Below are positions 5,085 through 16,774 of a DNA stretch of 22,319 nt, piece after piece. Position 1 is the first letter of the stretch. The number at the start of each line of letters is the position of its first letter. Source of the DNA: a virus; the IMG/VR virus record IMGVR_UViG_3300042561_000923, positions 1 to 22,319 of that record. One strand, written 5' to 3'. The position numbers and the translations under genes are program-made. The notes below the pieces were generated by a model. The model was not told the origin of the DNA. It ran no database searches and saw only the letters and a list, made by a program, of their open reading frames with translations.

Positions 5085-5448
5085 GACCATCAGACGATAC
5101 AATATACCAATTACCATCAACAAACTTAAATTTAACACAAGCTCCTTTTTCAAGAAGGAGCTCATCCCACTCTTCATCAATTGAGCCAGTGTCGGATTTA
5201 ATTAAAGTTTGTGTAAGAGATTTTACTGTAATTTTTTTTACAATAGAAGAATTTAATGTTACTTCAGAATACTCAACACCCCTAACAATTAAAAATGTTT
5301 CATCGGTAGTTGTATAGACAGATTCGGATATTATTTTATGAACCTCAACCGGTTTCTCAATAATAACTTTTGGCTCAACAATAGTTTGTGTTGTATATTT
5401 TACAACATTTTTTCTTTGTGTTAAATTATCAAATCTTACTCCACCCAT
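5071..5448 (-). CDS. Small structural protein with fibre-tip-like C-terminus
   Basis: 125 residues. The N-terminal half is polar and extended (MGGVRFDNLTQRKNVVKY and onward). The C-terminal about 70 residues are beta-rich and end in NWYIVSSDG, resembling the NGNWYLI end of the fibre at 1-945, so a similar tip fold is likely. The start ATG overlaps the TAA of the upstream neck-like gene by one base (TAATG), which suggests translational coupling and one operon. The 3' end overlaps the DNA polymerase gene end by 14 bases, tail to tail. No enzyme motif or membrane segment is seen. The function is inferred as a neck- or head-attached appendage (whisker or short fibre). Confidence 0.7.
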   Translation of the reverse strand: MGGVRFDNLTQRKNVVKYTTQTIVEPKVIIEKPVEVHKIISESVYTTTDETFLIVRGVEYSEVTLNSSIVKKITVKSLTQTLIKSDTGSIDEEWDELLLEKGACVKFKFVDGNWYIVSSDGLKMS

Positions 5449-6572
5449 TATATTACATATATTTGTCTAGGCATCGCTCTAAACTTGAGCTGTTTATTTA
5501 AATTCTCAGCAATTAAAGCTTCTCTTTCCATTACCTTTTCTGGTTTAAGACGAGTTAATCTTCCTTCAGCACCGATTAGTTCCTCAATTAATTTTGTCTT
5601 TTCATCTTTTGCTTCAGTTGCTAGCGACTGATAATCTAATGTTAAATCAGCATCCGGTGTTTTTAGATTACCACTATATTTACCTCTTACTTTTGAAAGT
5701 GTTTCTTTACAGTATGCAATGAACCATCTTCTAACCCAAATTTGTGCCGGGTTATTTAATTCATACCAACTAATTTTATCAAATGGAACATCAGATGGTA
5801 GTTTAACTATTTCTGGATTATCTTTTAAACATTTATCTCTATCTTCCGGACCAACATCATAATACCAGTACCAAACTTTACCTCTCATTAATGTTGAATT
5901 ACCAAAGTCAAATTTACCACCAGGTGTGTTCATTAAGTGAATTGCTTTTTTACCATCCGGTAATGCTGTTACTCTATATGTTAAATCACCTGCGATAATT
6001 CTTCTTTGAATGTTAATTTCTTGCATTCTTAATAACATATCAAATGCTGGCATCATAAAGTAAGAACCTGCCATATTACCCATTTGTGCGTAACCTGCAG
6101 GACCAGAAATACCACCACCAGCAATTCCACCAAATGTCCAAGGATCAAATAACATATTATTTAATTCTGGTGGTGTAAACCATAGTAATTCATTTAATTC
6201 TCTATTTGCCGGTATTTCATAAATTTGTTGTCCTGATTGTAATTGTATATAATCTTTTTTTAATACATAATCACCCCCAGCTTGTAGACCTACTATTTTT
6301 GAATAAGCGTATGTGTATCTTGTTTCATAATCTAAACTTCTTGTCGTAAAAGCTTTTGCTAGTGACTGTGTATCTAAATTTAAATTATTTAAGGCCGTCC
6401 ATTGTGATTCAATTAACCAATCTTGAACATATTGTGAATACTCATCAATTGAAAATTCAAGTAATGTATCCATTTGTTCGTCTTCAAGTTCAACAGATCT
6501 TAAAGGTGCACCAAGTAAGTGTCTAATCTTTGTGTAAAGTTGACTTCTTTCGGGTTCATTGATTATTGACAT
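5448..6572 (-). CDS. 13: Neck / head-completion protein, T4 gp13-like
   Basis: 374 residues. The N-terminal region (LGAP at 20-23, then a stretch with EDEQMDTLLEFSIDEY) matches the pattern of T4-type gp13 neck proteins: a short helix, LGAP, then an acidic amphipathic helix. A Gly-rich loop lies at about 148-170. Near 275-300 a Trp/Arg-rich helix (WVRRWFIAYCKETLSK) precedes a long charged C-terminal helix, as in gp13 relatives that bind the portal/neck ring. The role is inferred: closing the packaged head and providing the tail docking site. The ATG lies 15 bases after a late promoter motif that overlaps the stop codon of the upstream SOD-domain gene. Assignment rests on motif pattern and neighbours; it could be another neck protein. 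Confidence 0.6.
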   Translation of the reverse strand: MSIINEPERSQLYTKIRHLLGAPLRSVELEDEQMDTLLEFSIDEYSQYVQDWLIESQWTALNNLNLDTQSLAKAFTTRSLDYETRYTYAYSKIVGLQAGGDYVLKKDYIQLQSGQQIYEIPANRELNELLWFTPPELNNMLFDPWTFGGIAGGGISGPAGYAQMGNMAGSYFMMPAFDMLLRMQEINIQRRIIAGDLTYRVTALPDGKKAIHLMNTPGGKFDFGNSTLMRGKVWYWYYDVGPEDRDKCLKDNPEIVKLPSDVPFDKISWYELNNPAQIWVRRWFIAYCKETLSKVRGKYSGNLKTPDADLTLDYQSLATEAKDEKTKLIEELIGAEGRLTRLKPEKVMEREALIAENLNKQLKFRAMPRQIYVI

Positions 6573-6587: not shown

Positions 6588-6595
6588 ATAAATAT
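6588..6595 (-). promoter_or_regulatory. Late promoter motif ATATTTAT (gp13-like operon)
   Basis: On the minus strand ATATTTAT followed by TAAGAAAA, 15 bases before the ATG at 6572. It overlaps the TGA stop of the preceding gene by one base, so the 22-base gap between the two genes is essentially this promoter. Confidence 0.65.
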
Positions 6596-8691
6596 CAAGC
6601 TCTTGAAATTGTTAATCTTTTAAGGTCAAATTTGAACCTTTCATTTTTTGATAAATCTCTAATAATATCTTGTGGTATGTTATCACCAAGTCTTGGAACA
6701 CCGTATTTTTCACCCAATGAATTAAATAAAGTAACAACTTCTTTTGTTTTTTCATCACCAATTAAAAACTCTTTATATTGGTCCATTGTTACCATTGGAA
6801 ATTTAATTGCACCTACCATAGTTTTATCCATTTTTAATATTTTTGTGGACAGTGATATTGTTTGTGCTTCTTTAGTTCTTCCAGATTTTAACAAGTTTGG
6901 TGTTTTAATAAGTTCAATAATTCTATTTTTATCATAATAGTATAAATCAACACTCATATTTTTTGCATTTGGAACACCAACAAGTAATCCCGTTATATCA
7001 TTAAGTAAAAAATTTAATAAATCTTCAGCTTGATTTTTTAAATCTTGATTTTCGTGGTTAATTAAAAGTTCAAGAAAGTTTGGGTATTGACTCAATTCAA
7101 TTAATTTATTTTTATTTTCTTGAGAACCATTATATCTTGACACAAATATACCAACAGATTTTCTAATACTTTTAAGTGAAATTCTTTCACCAGTATCTCT
7201 AATAATTTTACAAGAAAGTTTGTCACCATTTTTTGTTAATACGTCAAATGGAGAAGACAAATTAGTAGCTAATGTACCATCAAGAAAACCTGTAACCATA
7301 CCTTCAAAATCAAAACCTCTTGTTTTACTTTTAACAAATCTTTGAAAATAATTATTAAATCTATACTTTGATCTTTCTGAAACATTATTTAAATCAAGTG
7401 ACATTAACTCTTGTAAAGTTCTATTAAAATTGATGGTGCCTCTCTCAATTTCGGCACTTATAATATTATTTATAGCTTCCGCCGCAGCTTCAGCATCCAA
7501 AGGAATAAGACGAATTTTTTGTAATTCTCTCGACATAGCCTTTTTAAGGTCTTGATCAATCTCTTCATTTTCAACAATTAATTTTGCAATTGATTCTGAT
7601 AATTTCTTTTTTGATTTTGAGACAAATAAATCATTTACAAAATCCCAATTTATGTGGTTCCAGAAATTTTTGATATAATTATCTCTTTTGTTTTTAAATT
7701 TTAAATAATAAGCATGTTCCCATAAATCAAGACCAAGCAATGGATAACCACCATTGTCAATTACATTCATAATAGGATTATCTTGATTTGGTGTTGACAT
7801 AATTTTTAACTTATTTGATTTTGTTAATACCAACCAAACCCAACCAGAACCAAAACTATCTTTGGCCACTTGGTTAAATTCATTTTTCATTTTTTGTATA
7901 TTCCCAAAATCTTTTTTAATCTTATCAAGTATTTCACCTTTAGGTAATTGTTTTTTTGGTGAAAGCATTTTCCAAAATAAAGCATGATTAAAAGCCCCAC
8001 CAGCATTATTCCTTATTGTTTTATCAAATTTGCTTATTGATTTTACTATGTCTTCAAGGTCCTCATATTTAAAATCGACAACACTTAAAGCTTTATTTAA
8101 TTTTTTTACATAACCTTTATAGTGTTTGTTATAGTGAATGTTCATAGTTTCACTACCAACAAATTTATTTAATGCCGAATATGAATAAGGTAATTTTTCA
8201 ATACCAATTTTTTTCATTTCGGTTAATAATTCTTTTTTTTGGGTTTTAATTTCGGTTAATAATATTTCTTCTTTTAACAAATTTACCTTTCTATTTAATC
8301 CCTCATACATCATTTTTTCTTTTTTTGGGAATTGTTTTTCAAACTTTTTTATAAGTTGTCCGGCAAAAGCATTTGCCTCATCTTCATTTTTTCCACCAAT
8401 GTTTGGACCTTTTGGTCTTTTTAAAATATTTCTTTGGTAATCGTGAACCCATTCGTGCGCTAGAGTTCTTAGTGTGTCTCTATTTAATCTACCTTTAGAT
8501 AAAATTTTAATCTCTCTTTTATGTTCATTATGACTTCCAGTTGACATATTACCAGTTCTTTCAGAAAAAAAAGTAATTGTTAAATCATTTTTTAATGGAT
8601 ATTCTTTTTGTAAAAATTTTAAAAAATCAACATATAATTTTTTATCATTATCCGTAATTGACTTATCTTTATATACAACATTAACTTTCAT
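6595..8691 (-). CDS. Multidomain protein: zinc-peptidase-like, Mn-type superoxide dismutase, unknown C-terminal domain
   Basis: 698 residues from the ATG at 8691. A GTG nine codons upstream is unlikely because it sits inside a terminator stem and before the promoter motif. Residues about 1-130: H79-E-x-x-H83 plus EDEANAFA near 103-110, the zincin pattern of ImmA/IrrE-like peptidases. Residues about 166-356: a complete Fe/Mn superoxide dismutase domain with metal ligands H186 (HYNKHY), H236 (FNHALFW), D322 and H326 (DLWEHAYY), and second-shell Y194. NNAGG before H236 and Q303 in STPNQD are Mn-type signatures. It should convert superoxide to oxygen and peroxide. Residues about 360-698 are unassigned; FEGMVTGF, then PFDV and LSCK at about 463-495 loosely resemble a PD-(D/E)XK fold. 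A late promoter and structural neighbours suggest a virion-associated or late protein; that is inference. Confidence 0.9.
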   Translation of the reverse strand: MKVNVVYKDKSITDNDKKLYVDFLKFLQKEYPLKNDLTITFFSERTGNMSTGSHNEHKREIKILSKGRLNRDTLRTLAHEWVHDYQRNILKRPKGPNIGGKNEDEANAFAGQLIKKFEKQFPKKEKMMYEGLNRKVNLLKEEILLTEIKTQKKELLTEMKKIGIEKLPYSYSALNKFVGSETMNIHYNKHYKGYVKKLNKALSVVDFKYEDLEDIVKSISKFDKTIRNNAGGAFNHALFWKMLSPKKQLPKGEILDKIKKDFGNIQKMKNEFNQVAKDSFGSGWVWLVLTKSNKLKIMSTPNQDNPIMNVIDNGGYPLLGLDLWEHAYYLKFKNKRDNYIKNFWNHINWDFVNDLFVSKSKKKLSESIAKLIVENEEIDQDLKKAMSRELQKIRLIPLDAEAAAEAINNIISAEIERGTINFNRTLQELMSLDLNNVSERSKYRFNNYFQRFVKSKTRGFDFEGMVTGFLDGTLATNLSSPFDVLTKNGDKLSCKIIRDTGERISLKSIRKSVGIFVSRYNGSQENKNKLIELSQYPNFLELLINHENQDLKNQAEDLLNFLLNDITGLLVGVPNAKNMSVDLYYYDKNRIIELIKTPNLLKSGRTKEAQTISLSTKILKMDKTMVGAIKFPMVTMDQYKEFLIGDEKTKEVVTLFNSLGEKYGVPRLGDNIPQDIIRDLSKNERFKFDLKRLTISRA

Positions 8692-8697
8692 TATAAT

Positions 8698-8705
8698 ATA
8701 AATAC
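8698..8705 (-). promoter_or_regulatory. Late promoter motif GTATTTAT (SOD-domain gene)
   Basis: GTATTTAT on the minus strand lies between the upstream gene's terminator and the ATG at 8691, with only 6 bases (ATTATA) to the start codon. If transcription starts where it does from T4 late promoters, the mRNA would be leaderless or nearly so. Confidence 0.6.
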
Positions 8706-8706
8706 T

Positions 8707-8732
8707 AAAAAACCCCACTTTGTGTGAGGTTT
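8707..8732 (-). terminator. Rho-independent terminator after the SNF2 helicase gene
   Basis: Read on the minus strand: a 9-bp stem AAACCTCAC / GTGGGGTTT with one G-U pair and a 5-base loop ACAAA. It is followed by a run of six T (8712-8707, partly inside the stem). It begins 3 bases after the helicase stop. The next gene's promoter motif follows immediately. Confidence 0.85.
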
Positions 8733-8735
8733 AGG

Positions 8736-10496
8736 TTATTTTCTTTTATTTATTAAATTAAGAATTTCTTCTACAACATCAACGGATTCGGAAACCTCAT
8801 CACCCATAACGGTCCCAATAATTTTCTTTTTGGTGTTTAATATATCATATATTACACCCTCGATTGTATTTTCAAAAATTGGATAATACACAAGAACATT
8901 ATTTTTCTGACCATAACGGTAAGCCCTATCTTCTGCTTGTGCGTGTTCAGCAGGAACAAAAGATAAATCATTCATAATTACAACTTCAGCAGAAGTTAAG
9001 GTAAGACCAACACCGGCCGCTTTTAAGTTCCCAACGAAAACTTTTATTTTCTCGTTGTCCTGGAATTGGTCAACAGCGTGTTGTCTTTGAACTTTATTAC
9101 AACTACCATCAAGGTATACGGCTTCTTTACCAAAATGGTTATAAATTGTTTGTAGTGTGTCTGTAAAATTTGTAAAAATAATAACTTTTTTTCCTTGGTC
9201 TATAATGTTCTGAGCAAACTCAATTGTTTCTTTTGCTTTTTCATTTGCCATTACTTTTCTTACTTTCATAAGTTTTGAAAACTGAACAGTAAGTGATGAT
9301 GACTCTTCTTTTTTATTTTCTAACCATTCATAATATTCACCCATTAAATCTTTATATTCTTTTGATGAGGTCCTAAGATATACTGGTGTAATAATTTTAT
9401 CTGGTAAATCAAGGACATCTTCTTTTAATCTACGAAGAATTTGTGAAGATGTTCGGTCCCTTAACTCTTCTAAGTTTGACGCTCCGGTTACATTCCATAC
9501 TTTTCTATTTCCAGCTCTAAATTGGTACCCTTGACAATAACGAATAGCGTAAGCCATCCAGTTTTGTGCAACCGGGCTTTCAATTATATTTAAAAGATTA
9601 TAATAATTCATTGGTCGAGATGTCATTGGGGTTCCGGTTAATAACCAAACTCTTTTAATATCTTTTACAAAATTATTTATAATTTTTGTTCTTTGAGCCT
9701 GTGCATTTGAAATCATATGGGCCTCATCCAATATCACTAATTCAAATCCGGACTTAACAAGTAATGAATTTTCTTTATTCTTTGGGTCGTGAAAGTTTTT
9801 TAGGATGTCGTAATTTACAATAACAAAGTCGTGTTCAGTTGAAAATTTCTTACCTTCTGCAATATAACAAGACCTATCTGAATAATTTGCAATTTCTCGT
9901 TCCCAATTTATTTTAAGTGATGCTGGACAAATAATTAAAATCTTTTTTGCTCCGGTCTCAAGGGCTGCAATAATTGTTGATGTTGTTTTTCCAAGTCCCA
10001 TATCATCAGCAAGTATAAATCTTTTGGAACCGACAAGTTTTTCAATAGCTTCTTTTTGGTGTGACAGAGGTGGACGGTGACCATATTTAGCATAATCAAT
10101 CTCAACTTTTTCAACCGAGTGTGTTTTAATTAAAGATGATTTTGGAATCCAAAATTCAGATAAAATATCTTTTTCAAAAAACTTTCCCCAAATGTGATAT
10201 GATTTATCTTTTTCAACCAATAGTTTTTCAATGTAAACTTTTTCTGGTATCTCAAGTAAGTATCTTTCGGTTGCAAACTTTTTAGCAAAGTAAGTATCAA
10301 GAACAACCCACTTACGAGCAACTTTTGGTTTTGTATCAAAATAATTAACGATGTAATCTGCTTGAGTTCTTGTTGGGTAAAACTTTTTGTTTGTTTCCTT
10401 TTTGGATTTCATATAAAGGATATAGTTGTTAGCCCCACTATATGAGTCCAACAATTCCAAAGCCTTTTGTTCTATTATTTGTTTTTGAATTTCCAA
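8736..10496 (-). CDS. SNF2-family DNA helicase / translocase
   Basis: About 586 residues if translation starts at the TTG at 10496; the same frame stays open to a TTG at 10523, which lies upstream of the promoter motif. Numbering from 10523: Walker A GLGKT 176-180, DEAH 266-269, motif III LTGTP 295-299, motif V around AGVGLTLTSA 503-512, and motif VI QAEDRAYRYGQ 529-539, the SNF2 signature. The 150-residue N-terminal region resembles the substrate-recognition part of SMARCAL1/HARP-type proteins. Such enzymes use ATP to move along or anneal DNA; in phages they often serve where T4 uses UvsW, in fork remodelling and recombination. A terminator follows the stop. It diverges from the neck genes at 10553. 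No ATG is available near the 5' end; an internal ATG at 10412 would cut conserved-looking sequence. Confidence 0.9.
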   Translation of the reverse strand: MEIQKQIIEQKALELLDSYSGANNYILYMKSKKETNKKFYPTRTQADYIVNYFDTKPKVARKWVVLDTYFAKKFATERYLLEIPEKVYIEKLLVEKDKSYHIWGKFFEKDILSEFWIPKSSLIKTHSVEKVEIDYAKYGHRPPLSHQKEAIEKLVGSKRFILADDMGLGKTTSTIIAALETGAKKILIICPASLKINWEREIANYSDRSCYIAEGKKFSTEHDFVIVNYDILKNFHDPKNKENSLLVKSGFELVILDEAHMISNAQAQRTKIINNFVKDIKRVWLLTGTPMTSRPMNYYNLLNIIESPVAQNWMAYAIRYCQGYQFRAGNRKVWNVTGASNLEELRDRTSSQILRRLKEDVLDLPDKIITPVYLRTSSKEYKDLMGEYYEWLENKKEESSSLTVQFSKLMKVRKVMANEKAKETIEFAQNIIDQGKKVIIFTNFTDTLQTIYNHFGKEAVYLDGSCNKVQRQHAVDQFQDNEKIKVFVGNLKAAGVGLTLTSAEVVIMNDLSFVPAEHAQAEDRAYRYGQKNNVLVYYPIFENTIEGVIYDILNTKKKIIGTVMGDEVSESVDVVEEILNLINKRK

Positions 10497-10506
10497 AATT
10501 ATAGTT

Positions 10507-10514
10507 ATAAATAA
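10507..10514 (-). promoter_or_regulatory. Promoter motif TTATTTAT (helicase gene)
   Basis: On the minus strand TTATTTAT lies 10 bases before the candidate TTG start at 10496. It forms a divergent pair with the rightward motif at 10532-10539. Confidence 0.45.
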
Positions 10515-10531
10515 AAATAACAATAAAAAGA

Positions 10532-12385: not shown

Positions 12386-15300
12386 ATGGCAACAAACAGT
12401 AAAGTATTTGTATCACCAGGTGTCTATACTTCAGAAGTTGATTTGAGTTTTGTGGCACAAAGTGTTGGTGTAACAACATTAGGTATTGCTGGAGAAACTT
12501 TAAAAGGTCCAGCATTTGAACCAATCTTTGTAAAAAGCTACGACGAATTTCAAACTTACTTTGGAGGAACTTCACCTGAAAAATTTGTGAATACTCAAAT
12601 CCCTAAGTATGAGGCAGCATATATTGCAAAATCTTACTTACAACAATCAAGTCAATTATTTGTAACGAGAATATTGGGTCTATCTGGTTATGATGCGGGA
12701 CCATCTTGGTCAATTGTAACTAAAGCAAATGTTGACCCAACAACAATTGGTGTATGGTGTTTAGATCCAGTTATTATTGATTGTGAACCAGCTTGTAATT
12801 TACCAAAAGAAGTTGTTTTCACAATTGACTTCACTGGTTGTACAAATAGTTCAGATTCAGTAATCTTTGACTTAGCTTCAAGTACATTACCAAATGAAAT
12901 TAAATCTATATTAAATGAACAATATGAAACATTTGATGGTTCATTAAGTTCACTTAATGATAATTTACAAACTTTAGTTTATAATGTAATCACCTCAACT
13001 AACCCAAATGCTGAGGATGAAACAATTAGTTACTTTGGGTCGATTGATGGTGTTGACTATAGCGCATTAACAATTACTGGAACGTACACTGGTGAAACTA
13101 ATGTATTCCAAGTTCCAGCCGTACCTTTGGATCAAACTGATTTAGCATCACCTTTTAATGACCCTTGGTATTATTCATTATTTGACAATATTGGTGGTGG
13201 AGAATATACTGGTTCTTCATTCTGGAGTATAGTAAGTGGATTAACATTAATTAACCCAGTTGTTACAAGTACAACAACATTACCTACAACTCCAACTCCT
13301 ACACCAACACCGGTAAATCCTTGTGTTACACCACAGCCTTTTGTGTCACCAACACCTACACCAACACCGGTGAATATTGATTGTTATTCTGGTCAAGTTA
13401 TTGGTAAAATTTATTATTATACAGGAACTTCATACACAGATTATGATGATTTAGTAATTGCAACTTTAAGATCTAGAGGTATTGCGACTTATGCAAATTC
13501 AAATAACCCAGTATATGAGATTAGTAATATCAATAATGTTACTTTGGATATGAGTGGTCAATATTCTGGTGTAACTAAAAACCCATATTTACCATTTGCA
13601 GTTAATGCAACCAATGATTTAGGTACATCATTTATTTTTGAAACTTCGTTTAGTACTTCTGACGCTCAATACATTTCAAAAGTATTTGGAACAAGTAACT
13701 TTGGCAAACCAAGAAATGTAAATCCATTGTTCTTAGAAGAAAGATATCAAGCTTTACTTAATTATGCTTGGAGAAAAGGATATATTAGAGGATTGTCATC
13801 TGAAATTGTTCCATTAGACTCAGCACAAAGTCAGGCGATAGATTCTATTGGTTGGTACTTAGATAGATACCAATCACCGGCATCACCTTGGGTTGTTTCT
13901 GAAGTTAGAGGTTCTAAAGTATTTAACTTATTTAAATTCTATACAATTTCTGACGGTAACTCAGCAAATACTGAAGTTAAAATCTCAATTAGTGATATAT
14001 CATTTGCTAATCAAACATTTACAGTATTAGTTAGAAATTATTTTGATACAGATTCTAATCCAATTGTTGTTGAGAAATTTACAAACTGTTCGATGGACCC
14101 AAGTCAAAACAATTTTATTGCTAAGAAAGTTGGTACTCTGGATGGTGAATATGAATTAAAATCTAAATACATTATGGTTGAGATGAATGAGGATGCACCA
14201 GTAGATGCTCTTCCATGTGGTTTTGATGGATACGTTGTAAGAGAATATGATGGTATGAAATCACCATTCCCAATTTATAAAACTAAATATGATTTCCCAG
14301 GTGAAGTTATTTATAACCCACCATTTGGTTTTGCTTCAGGTGCTGATGACGCAATAACAAGTTCTGGAGACAATATTAGAAGAACATATTTAGGTATGTC
14401 AAGTAATATTGGATTTGACTCTGATTTCTTTGAATATCAAGGTAAGAGAAATCCATTAAGTCCTTGTGATTTAGAAGGTAGTGAATGGAATATTAAAACA
14501 AGAGGTTATCATATGGATATAAATGCAAGTGGTATTACAATTAACGGACCATTTGCAACAAGTGGAACACCAAGATTCTATGTTGGTAACGCACCATTTA
14601 GTTCTGAACCAACTCTTGATGTAAACCCATATTACAGATTATTTGCTCGTAAGTTTACATTATTTGTAAAAGGTGGATTCGATGGATGGGATATCTATAG
14701 AGAATATAGAACAAATGGCGATAGATATGTTTTAGGTCGTCAAGGGTTCCTTAATGGGGCTTGTCCATCTGACAGATACCCAACTGCAGCAGGATGGGGT
14801 GCATTTAAACAAATTGCAATCGGTGATGGAACAAGAGATTGGGCGAACACTGACTACTACGCTTATCTATTAGGTATTAGATCATTTGCAAACCCAGAAG
14901 CTGTAAATATCAATGTATTTGTAACACCAGGTATTGATGTTCAAAATAACTCTGATTTAGTCGAAAACACAATCGATATGATTGAAAATGAAAGAGCTGA
15001 CTCATTGTATATTACAACATTACCGGATTACAACTTGTTCTTACCAACAACAACAGGAACTGATGGTTTAATTTACCCTCAAGAAGCTGTTGATATATTG
15101 GAAGAAACAGGAATTGATTCTAACTACACAGCAACTTATTACCCTTGGGTATTAACAAGAGACAGTGTAAACAATACACAAATCTATATCCCAGCAACGG
15201 CTGAGGTTACAAGAAACTTAGCTTTAACTGATAACATTGCATTCCCTTGGTTTGCGGCGGCTGGTTATACTCGTGGTATTGTAAACGCGATTAAAGCTCG

Positions 15301-15739
15301 TAAGAAGTTAACACAAGAAGATAGAGATACTCTATATGTTGGTCGAGTTAACCCAATTGCAACATTTGCTGATGTCGGTACTGTAATCTGGGGTAACAAA
15401 ACTCTTCAAGTCAGAGAATCTGCTCTTGACAGAATCAACGTAAGAAGATTGTTATTACAAGCAAGAAAATTAATTTCTGCAGTTTCTGTAAGATTATTAT
15501 TCGATCAAAACGACGAACAAGTAAGACAGGACTTCTTAAATGCTGTTAACCCAATCTTGGATGCAATTAGAAGAGATAGAGGTTTGTATGATTTCCGAGT
15601 AACCGTTTCAAGTGATACGGAAGATTTAGATAAAAACCAGTTAGTTGGTAAAATCTACATCAAACCAACAAGGTCTCTTGAATTTATTGACATTACATTC
15701 TACATTACACCAACCGGTGCTTCATTTGAAGATGTGTGA
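12386..15739 (+). CDS. 18: Contractile tail sheath protein, T4 gp18-like, unusually large
   Basis: 1117 residues; T4 gp18 has 659. The N-terminus (FVSPGVYTSEVDLS, 8-21) is the classic sheath strand that links neighbouring subunits. The C-terminal core (about 840-1117) carries NINVFVTPG, then WFAAAGYTRG near 954, VNPIATF, NVRRLLLQ and the final strand region TRSLEFIDITFYITPTG, typical of sheath domain IV. Between about 105 and 440 is an insertion containing two Pro-Thr-rich stretches (about 293-330) that bracket PCVTPQPFVSP, encoded by a 21-base near-perfect repeat. The insertion is expected to project from the sheath surface. Sheath subunits surround the tube and contract to drive it into the host. 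A strong terminator follows the TGA. Confidence 0.95.
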   Translation: MATNSKVFVSPGVYTSEVDLSFVAQSVGVTTLGIAGETLKGPAFEPIFVKSYDEFQTYFGGTSPEKFVNTQIPKYEAAYIAKSYLQQSSQLFVTRILGLSGYDAGPSWSIVTKANVDPTTIGVWCLDPVIIDCEPACNLPKEVVFTIDFTGCTNSSDSVIFDLASSTLPNEIKSILNEQYETFDGSLSSLNDNLQTLVYNVITSTNPNAEDETISYFGSIDGVDYSALTITGTYTGETNVFQVPAVPLDQTDLASPFNDPWYYSLFDNIGGGEYTGSSFWSIVSGLTLINPVVTSTTTLPTTPTPTPTPVNPCVTPQPFVSPTPTPTPVNIDCYSGQVIGKIYYYTGTSYTDYDDLVIATLRSRGIATYANSNNPVYEISNINNVTLDMSGQYSGVTKNPYLPFAVNATNDLGTSFIFETSFSTSDAQYISKVFGTSNFGKPRNVNPLFLEERYQALLNYAWRKGYIRGLSSEIVPLDSAQSQAIDSIGWYLDRYQSPASPWVVSEVRGSKVFNLFKFYTISDGNSANTEVKISISDISFANQTFTVLVRNYFDTDSNPIVVEKFTNCSMDPSQNNFIAKKVGTLDGEYELKSKYIMVEMNEDAPVDALPCGFDGYVVREYDGMKSPFPIYKTKYDFPGEVIYNPPFGFASGADDAITSSGDNIRRTYLGMSSNIGFDSDFFEYQGKRNPLSPCDLEGSEWNIKTRGYHMDINASGITINGPFATSGTPRFYVGNAPFSSEPTLDVNPYYRLFARKFTLFVKGGFDGWDIYREYRTNGDRYVLGRQGFLNGACPSDRYPTAAGWGAFKQIAIGDGTRDWANTDYYAYLLGIRSFANPEAVNINVFVTPGIDVQNNSDLVENTIDMIENERADSLYITTLPDYNLFLPTTTGTDGLIYPQEAVDILEETGIDSNYTATYYPWVLTRDSVNNTQIYIPATAEVTRNLALTDNIAFPWFAAAGYTRGIVNAIKARKKLTQEDRDTLYVGRVNPIATFADVGTVIWGNKTLQVRESALDRINVRRLLLQARKLISAVSVRLLFDQNDEQVRQDFLNAVNPILDAIRRDRGLYDFRVTVSSDTEDLDKNQLVGKIYIKPTRSLEFIDITFYITPTGASFEDV
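13298..13375 (+). repeat. Duplicated 21-base Pro-Thr coding segment in the sheath gene
   Basis: CCTACACCAACACCGGTRAA plus T occurs at 13298-13318 and 13355-13375 with one mismatch, 57 bases (19 codons) apart. It encodes PTPTPVN twice. It marks a flexible, duplicated linker within the sheath insertion. Confidence 0.8.
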
Positions 15740-15808: not shown

Positions 15809-16774
15809 ATGAATCACAAAATTTTAGTTAGACAGATTATAAAAGAAATGGTAGAGAAAAAAAATCTACGTTTATATGGTTTTGATTGGGATGATAATAT
15901 TTTGAGAATGCCAACTAAAATATATTTAAAATCTGACCTTGGGGATGTTATTGGAATGTCGACAGAAGATTTTGCGGAATACAGACATTTGATTGGAAAC
16001 GAACCTTTTGATTATGAAGGGGACACAATAGTTGGATATGACAACAACCCATATAGAGATTTTACAAGTTCCGAAACATTTTTAGAAGACACCGTAGAAG
16101 CAATTAAAAAAGATAGAAAATCACCAAGTTTTAAAAAGTTTAAAGAAAATTTAATATATGCTAACCCATTTTCAATTATTACCGCTAGAGGACATAGTCC
16201 AAACGTAATTAAAAAAGGTGTTAAAATGTTTATACATTTAGTTTTGTCACCGGAAGAAAAAGAAGAAATGATAGAAAATATTAAAAGAACTTTTGAACAC
16301 GAAGAAATGTTTTCAAAAAACTTTTTAGAAAAATTAGATGATTTATCCCCAAATCAATTATTAGATTTTTATTTAGATGAGAGAGGGGATTACTACCCGG
16401 TTTCTTCAAAAGAGTTTGGTGAAAAATTCGGATTAGAGACAAGTGGCGGAGCGGCAAATCCTGAGCACGCAAAAAAAATTGCCCTTGCCGATTTCATTTC
16501 AAAATATGATGATTTAATTAAAAGTGGAAAATATATTAATACTTCATTAGGATTTTCAGATGATGACCCAAGAAATATAAAAGCAATGGTTGAGTATGTA
16601 AAAAATGAATTATCAAGAATGTATCCAGAAGTAAAATTCATAATTTATGATACATCAGAAGGAGGATATTCAAAAATTCATATAGAAACTGGAAATGAAA
16701 AAGAAGAAAGTGAAGAAGAACTTATGTTAGAAAGTTTAATTAATAGGATAATATCCAAAATTAAATCAAAGTAA
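15809..16774 (+). CDS. HAD-superfamily phosphatase-like protein
   Basis: 321 residues. HAD motif I is FDWDDNIL with D26 (nucleophile) and D28 (acid/base). Motif II is T125 in FSIITARGH. A candidate motif III lysine is K222 or K223. Motif IV is the acidic cluster DDD (251-253) in GFSDDDPRNI. The region 130-215, between motifs II and III, is a large helical insert that could be a cap. HAD enzymes hydrolyse phosphate esters through an aspartyl phosphate; the substrate here cannot be read, and nucleotide or nucleic-acid phosphatase is plausible. The N-terminus (VRQIIKEMVEKK) and C-terminus (LESLINRIISKIKSK) are amphipathic helices outside the catalytic core. It lies between sheath and tube with its own late promoter, so it is expressed with virion genes. 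Confidence 0.75.
   Translation: MNHKILVRQIIKEMVEKKNLRLYGFDWDDNILRMPTKIYLKSDLGDVIGMSTEDFAEYRHLIGNEPFDYEGDTIVGYDNNPYRDFTSSETFLEDTVEAIKKDRKSPSFKKFKENLIYANPFSIITARGHSPNVIKKGVKMFIHLVLSPEEKEEMIENIKRTFEHEEMFSKNFLEKLDDLSPNQLLDFYLDERGDYYPVSSKEFGEKFGLETSGGAANPEHAKKIALADFISKYDDLIKSGKYINTSLGFSDDDPRNIKAMVEYVKNELSRMYPEVKFIIYDTSEGGYSKIHIETGNEKEESEEELMLESLINRIISKIKSK

Follow-up and report, generated by a model that had tools for sequence, protein, structure and literature searches.

A superoxide dismutase within a phage multidomain protein, possibly a cargo chain cut by the prohead protease

The window analysed here, a 22,319-nucleotide stretch of viral DNA, encodes a 698-residue protein in which a zincin-like domain, a complete Mn-type superoxide dismutase (SOD) and a predicted nuclease-fold domain form a single chain. 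We regard it as about an even call that this fusion is a phage polyvalent (cargo) polyprotein that is directed into the prohead, processed into individual enzymes and injected; packaging, cleavage, the protease, SOD activity, its metal and the benefit are all read from sequence. Three things would be new: a SOD that is always present in such a chain, joints that resemble leaders and carry gp21-type motifs, and the exchange of third modules. The main features of the locus are:

8736..10523, minus strand: SNF2/UvsW-like helicase, conserved upstream neighbour of the fusion gene
8697..8704, plus strand: TATAAATA, on the strand opposite to the fusion gene and facing away
6595..8691, minus strand: whole fusion ORF, 698 aa plus stop (zincin, linker 1, SOD, linker 2, nuclease-fold domain)
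8326..8691, minus strand: zincin-like domain, residues 1-122, with HEWVH (79-83) and the E in EDEAN
8218..8325, minus strand: linker 1, residues 123-158, with invariant [LI]xE at E141 and at E158 directly before M159; equivalent to the N-terminal leader of zincin-less SODs
7621..8217, minus strand: complete Mn/Fe superoxide dismutase domain, residues 159-357, ligands H186, H236, D322 and H326
7558..7620, minus strand: linker 2, KKLSESIAKLIVENEE, residues 358-378, with invariant [LI]xE at E366 and E374
6598..7557, minus strand: predicted PD-(D/E)XK nuclease fold, residues 379-698, with invariant E463, D483, S493-x-K495 and E502
5448..6572, minus strand: neck / head-tail adaptor protein, conserved downstream neighbour of the fusion gene

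The fusion gene starts at 8691 and stops at 6595-6597 on the minus strand (the original prediction gave no strand), and its product begins with MKVNVVYKDK. About 85 distinct SOD relatives are found in IMG/VR contigs; most have the same helicase and neck neighbours, and so do nearly all relatives of the fusion with enough flanking sequence, in agreement with the gene position first described. An assembly chimera is ruled out, because this architecture and gene order recur in many independent contigs. The late promoter motif attributed to the fusion gene did not hold up: TATAAATA occurs nine times in the window for 4.5 copies expected, and the argument fails because the motif is on the wrong strand. 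Scanning bacterial genomes with patterns derived from the SOD revealed none carrying the fusion. By eye, a terminator-like hairpin (CCTCAC...GTGGGG, then a T run) can be seen at 8705-8730 (minus strand), between the helicase and fusion genes. Elsewhere in the window, the tail sheath (1117 aa, 12386-15739, plus strand) contains TPTPTP-rich insertions and is longer than T4 gp18, and a 321-aa ORF (15809-16774, plus strand) has ends that resemble leaders (MNHKILVRQIIKEMVEKK ... ESLINRIISKIKSK) and contains DWDDN, a motif hinting at a HAD-type fold.

Both halves of the SOD domain exceed the curated Pfam cut-offs, as anticipated: Sod_Fe_N matches at residues 165-244 (E 1.4e-22, 80.4 bits, cut-off 27) and Sod_Fe_C at 250-354 (E 2.7e-39, 133.8 bits, cut-off 20.9). 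Matches to the NCBIfam SOD models fall below their equivalog cut-offs. Among solved structures, Mn-SODs come closest, with about 45% identity (6gsc, E 2.7e-57). The four ligands, as well as the NNAGG and NQD residues, were found at the positions claimed for them, and the Gln/Gly second shell of Mn-type enzymes is present. All four ligands are intact in 84 of the 85 distinct SOD relatives, the exception being L152, whose SOD is devoid of the first part of the domain; in this zincin-SOD sequence (L152 7986-8981), an in-frame loss covers the first metal ligand and the gene is possibly decaying. Between relatives, dN in the SOD is 0.05-0.16 while dS is 0.7-1.3, and the domain is therefore under purifying selection as a working enzyme and is presumably active. 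As the full-length AlphaFold model (10 sequences) is poor over this region, the SOD assignment rests on homology. The core of the original prediction, an intact and selected Mn-type SOD within a phage protein of several domains, one of them zincin-like, close to virion genes, thus stands, and its idea of action in the newly infected cell may be counted as supported.

Like bacterial Mn/Fe SODs, the fusion SOD is a complete domain with its ligands and a Mn-type second shell, but it is embedded in a multidomain phage protein, whereas many of the nearest bacterial SODs (L250-L315) bear N-terminal signal-like (Tat/Sec-type) sequences instead. The phage SOD may therefore stem from an exported enzyme. 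The nearest bacterial SODs found are those of Bacteroidota (Ferruginibacter, 52%), and the phage host is probably a member of this group, a reading drawn from just these relatives and the low GC. Several SOD matches labelled 'phage' look like bacterial contigs deposited as phage.

For residues 1-122, VIA indicates a zincin fold, with Z scores of about 9-10 to aminopeptidase N catalytic domains, 9.5 to AQ_1354 and 8.9 to Wss1, YbeY also being among the top matches; the HExxH motif and the downstream E are conserved. The zinc-peptidase-like character proposed for the HEWVH...EDEANAFA domain is thus retained, with both motifs, but its assignment to ImmA/IrrE (Peptidase_M78) is not: no Pfam peptidase family matches these residues at E<=1, and the fold search returns zincins in general. 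Other phages encode this zincin on its own, as a 129-aa protein whose gene has unrelated neighbours.

The approximately 340 C-terminal residues, initially described as unassigned, form a domain with a predicted nuclease fold. Modelled alone, residues 379-698 give a pLDDT of 84 and a pTM of 0.80, and the 34 best VIA matches of this model are all PD-(D/E)XK enzymes (restriction enzymes or resolvases), led by NhoI (Z 8.2, rmsd 5.6, 140 aligned), ThaI (8.0) and HinP1I (7.1); the best Foldseek E value is only 0.011. The model makes a PD-(D/E)XK fold likely. Residues E463, D483, S493, K495 and E502 never vary, even in a free-standing relative that shares 24% identity and is encoded by a 634-kb phage genome. 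A serine occupies the usual acidic position of (D/E)xK, and nuclease activity is uncertain for this reason. In PHROG, NCBIfam and PADLOC, nothing beyond weak matches was detected for the zincin domain or the third modules.

Comparison of the relatives shows that the third module is swappable at one locus, where it may be missing or replaced by small modules or by other large ones. Between helicase and neck genes, we found zincin-SOD alone (364-371 aa), zincin-SOD with one or two small modules, with a type C module (D...QxK pattern) and with a type D module (invariant FE[VI]KK), alongside the architecture of the window, and the longest chains consist of five modules (e.g. zincin-SOD-B-B-C in L238). 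There is also a zincin-less set, in which module D is encoded by its own gene behind a SOD with module E (L201 and L208), or SOD-C-D forms a single chain. The fusion is thus multidomain, as first described, but not one fixed unit. These observations bear on the possibility that the SOD is an ordinary cytoplasmic auxiliary enzyme, produced in the course of infection, that became fused accidentally while modules turn over neutrally. Other large phages, among them Vibrio phage 2.275.O and Pseudomonas phage Callisto, do encode free-standing SODs; however, the fusion has been kept at one locus across a wide clade and with swapped partners, and the junction motifs described below are conserved in all, so that we consider a chance fusion quite improbable.

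The junctions between modules carry a recurrent motif. In T4, L/I-X-E is the cleavage motif of gp21 (PMC9026906), and the targeting of internal proteins relies on short N-terminal propeptides that are cleaved at this motif (PMC9026906; PMC5694885); Alt, for example, is cut at ITE-6 and LTE-619 (PMC5694885). Among nine aligned homologs of the fusion, only five columns show [LI]xE in every row: one is the SOD active-site DLWEH and the other four are located in the two linkers, which account for about one tenth of the protein. After removal of junctions more than 60% alike, [L/I]-x-E is present in all 37 remaining SOD-module junctions (shuffled mean 17, maximum 27 in 5000 shuffles), with a total of 67 sites for 20.4+-3.9 in shuffled sequences, and only 23% of equal-sized windows inside domains contain the motif. 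A glutamate immediately precedes the SOD start in all 83 sequences, with I (48), L (30) or V (5) two positions earlier, and it is followed in 75 of the 83 by an M that looks like the old start codon of the SOD. No N-terminal propeptide of 10-19 residues ending in [L/I]-x-E exists in the window protein, which starts directly with the zincin domain and has its first [LI]xE at E141.

Could the chain be a polyvalent protein injected or acting whole, with three activities and linkers that are simply flexible helices? Full-length transfer is known for certain polyvalent proteins, such as the N4 virion RNA polymerase and ArdC (PMC5512222), and the linkers are predicted to be helical, at low confidence. 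Yet the junction motifs are conserved much more strongly than shuffled composition would predict, even between unrelated third modules, and the same modules exist as separate genes, which makes an uncut chain rather unlikely in our view, though deserving of attention.

Judged by their sequences, the junctions descend from, or imitate, N-terminal leaders, because the leaders of zincin-less SODs correspond to linker 1 and the SOD-C-D chains retain a leader. Zincin-less SODs start with a leader ending in LITE or FINE, followed by MKKIGIE, and this start is the sequence of linker 1 of the window (e.g. MEKLKLKSQKIEKQILLAEKQDVKETLITE then MKKIGIEKLPY); it is of the same kind as the T4 propeptide but longer. 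Three SOD-C-D chains keep a near-complete leader at the C-D junction (KKIIITEEQKKLIEA). When scored with a position matrix built from 33 unrelated leaders, these three are the best internal matches (23.8, 18.4 and 14.1 bits, for 11.2 bits in the best shuffled sequence); a leader HMM retrieves one clear internal match, where the matrix retrieves three. Free-standing relatives of the modules begin with the phage-wide leader MKIIITESQYxxLxE, and those of modules B and D with leaders such as MKIIITENQYKLIKEN. In a 257-kb relative (G001, L038-L050), at least 26 predicted proteins begin with one of a small set of almost identical leaders (RLTESDLxRIVKRVIxE, MNLQESIRRILREE, MKIIITESQYxxLxE and similar), many of which end in [L/I]-x-E; within the first 30 residues of G001 proteins, [LI]xE occurs 160 times for 114+-9 in shuffled sequences, with a peak at residues 6-15. 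One leader-bearing G001 protein is endolysin-like (GH19 and peptidoglycan-binding domains), the others tested being mostly without known identity, and the leader may thus signify something besides head targeting. We also considered that leaders might be phage-nucleus import signals.

Given swappable modules with leader-like [L/I]-x-E joints, the likely mechanism is no longer a SOD tethered to a protease but a set of cargo proteins, synthesised together and then probably split apart. Under the cargo polyprotein reading, the zincin-like domain, the SOD and the nuclease-fold domain would be synthesised as a single polypeptide that is taken up into the prohead core, the leader family being the local form of the T4 capsid-targeting propeptide. 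A gp21-type prohead protease would then cut after the glutamates of [L/I]-x-E, most likely after E158 (before the SOD's own start M) and after E366 or E374 (before the third module). The separated enzymes would be injected with the DNA, and the SOD would lower superoxide in the newly infected cell. Neither gp21 nor gp23 is encoded in the window record, a 22-kb fragment; both are encoded by G001, in which the gp23 propeptide ends with LINE|AT just before the mature part (FLTE|AE in T4) and is nearly identical in three more phages. The alignment of the T4 and G001 gp23 cleavage sites is clear three-way and shifts in five-way. The [LI]xE motif is short, and a single conserved gp23 site is our basis for the gp21 specificity assumed in these phages. 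Intein-like stretches (CIAGDTKIATTDG..., CLPPSEKVLTDCG...) were observed in large ORFs near the capsid genes of G001 (L038 14400-20000).

Alternatively, the zincin domain, instead of gp21, might cut the chain by autoproteolysis. Its fold, with conserved HExxH and E, is compatible with such a role, and processing by the MPTase domains of polyvalent proteins has been proposed (PMC5512222). However, the sites persist in SOD fusions that have no zincin attached, and the junction motif equals that of gp21; furthermore, no zincin was found in 12 zincin-less or related records (mostly fragments, searched without a positive control). We thus hold autoproteolysis to be improbable.

Polyvalent proteins of phages and conjugative elements are multidomain proteins with a zincin hub, thought to be injected (Iyer et al. 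2017, PMC5512222). Like them, the fusion unites unrelated enzymatic domains in one phage chain with a zincin-like metallopeptidase, its domains also exist as separate genes, and an early-infection role is likely; its disparate domains (zincin, SOD and nuclease fold) are what characterizes such proteins. It differs by the gp21-type [L/I]-x-E joints, by the retained leaders and by some members having no zincin, and a word search of the polyvalent-protein paper (PMC5512222) yields no mention of superoxide dismutase. The T4 internal head proteins and Alt likewise have short leaders ending in [L/I]-x-E with variable cargo behind, gp21 and gp23 being present in the relative G001; T4 cargo, however, consists of single proteins with terminal propeptides, whereas the fusion is a joined chain with leader-like parts inside and none at its own N-terminus. 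Chlorovirus PBCV-1 provides a precedent for a late viral SOD packaged in the virion (PMC7019647), although this Cu/Zn enzyme is free-standing, belongs to an unrelated family and comes from a virus with a eukaryotic host, and its packaging was shown, whereas that of the fusion is deduced from sequence. No paper describing a SOD-containing cargo chain was found in a non-exhaustive literature search.

More broadly, and with a confidence that falls somewhat short of even, we propose a swappable 'payload string', in which the SOD would always lie beside a variable, often nuclease-like module within one precursor with retained capsid-targeting leaders, cut by the head protease and jointly injected. 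An antioxidant would then be among the first phage proteins in the cell, and the same leader would mark dozens of uncharacterised proteins of these phages as injected cargo. If true, the fusion would be the phage counterpart of a viral polyprotein, with the head protease doing the cutting. Removing superoxide would then pay off within the first minutes of infection, which would hint at an oxidative barrier in hosts of the Bacteroidota type. The sequence rule, a leader ending in [L/I]-x-E, could moreover be used to pick out injected proteins from the many genes of unknown function in large phages.
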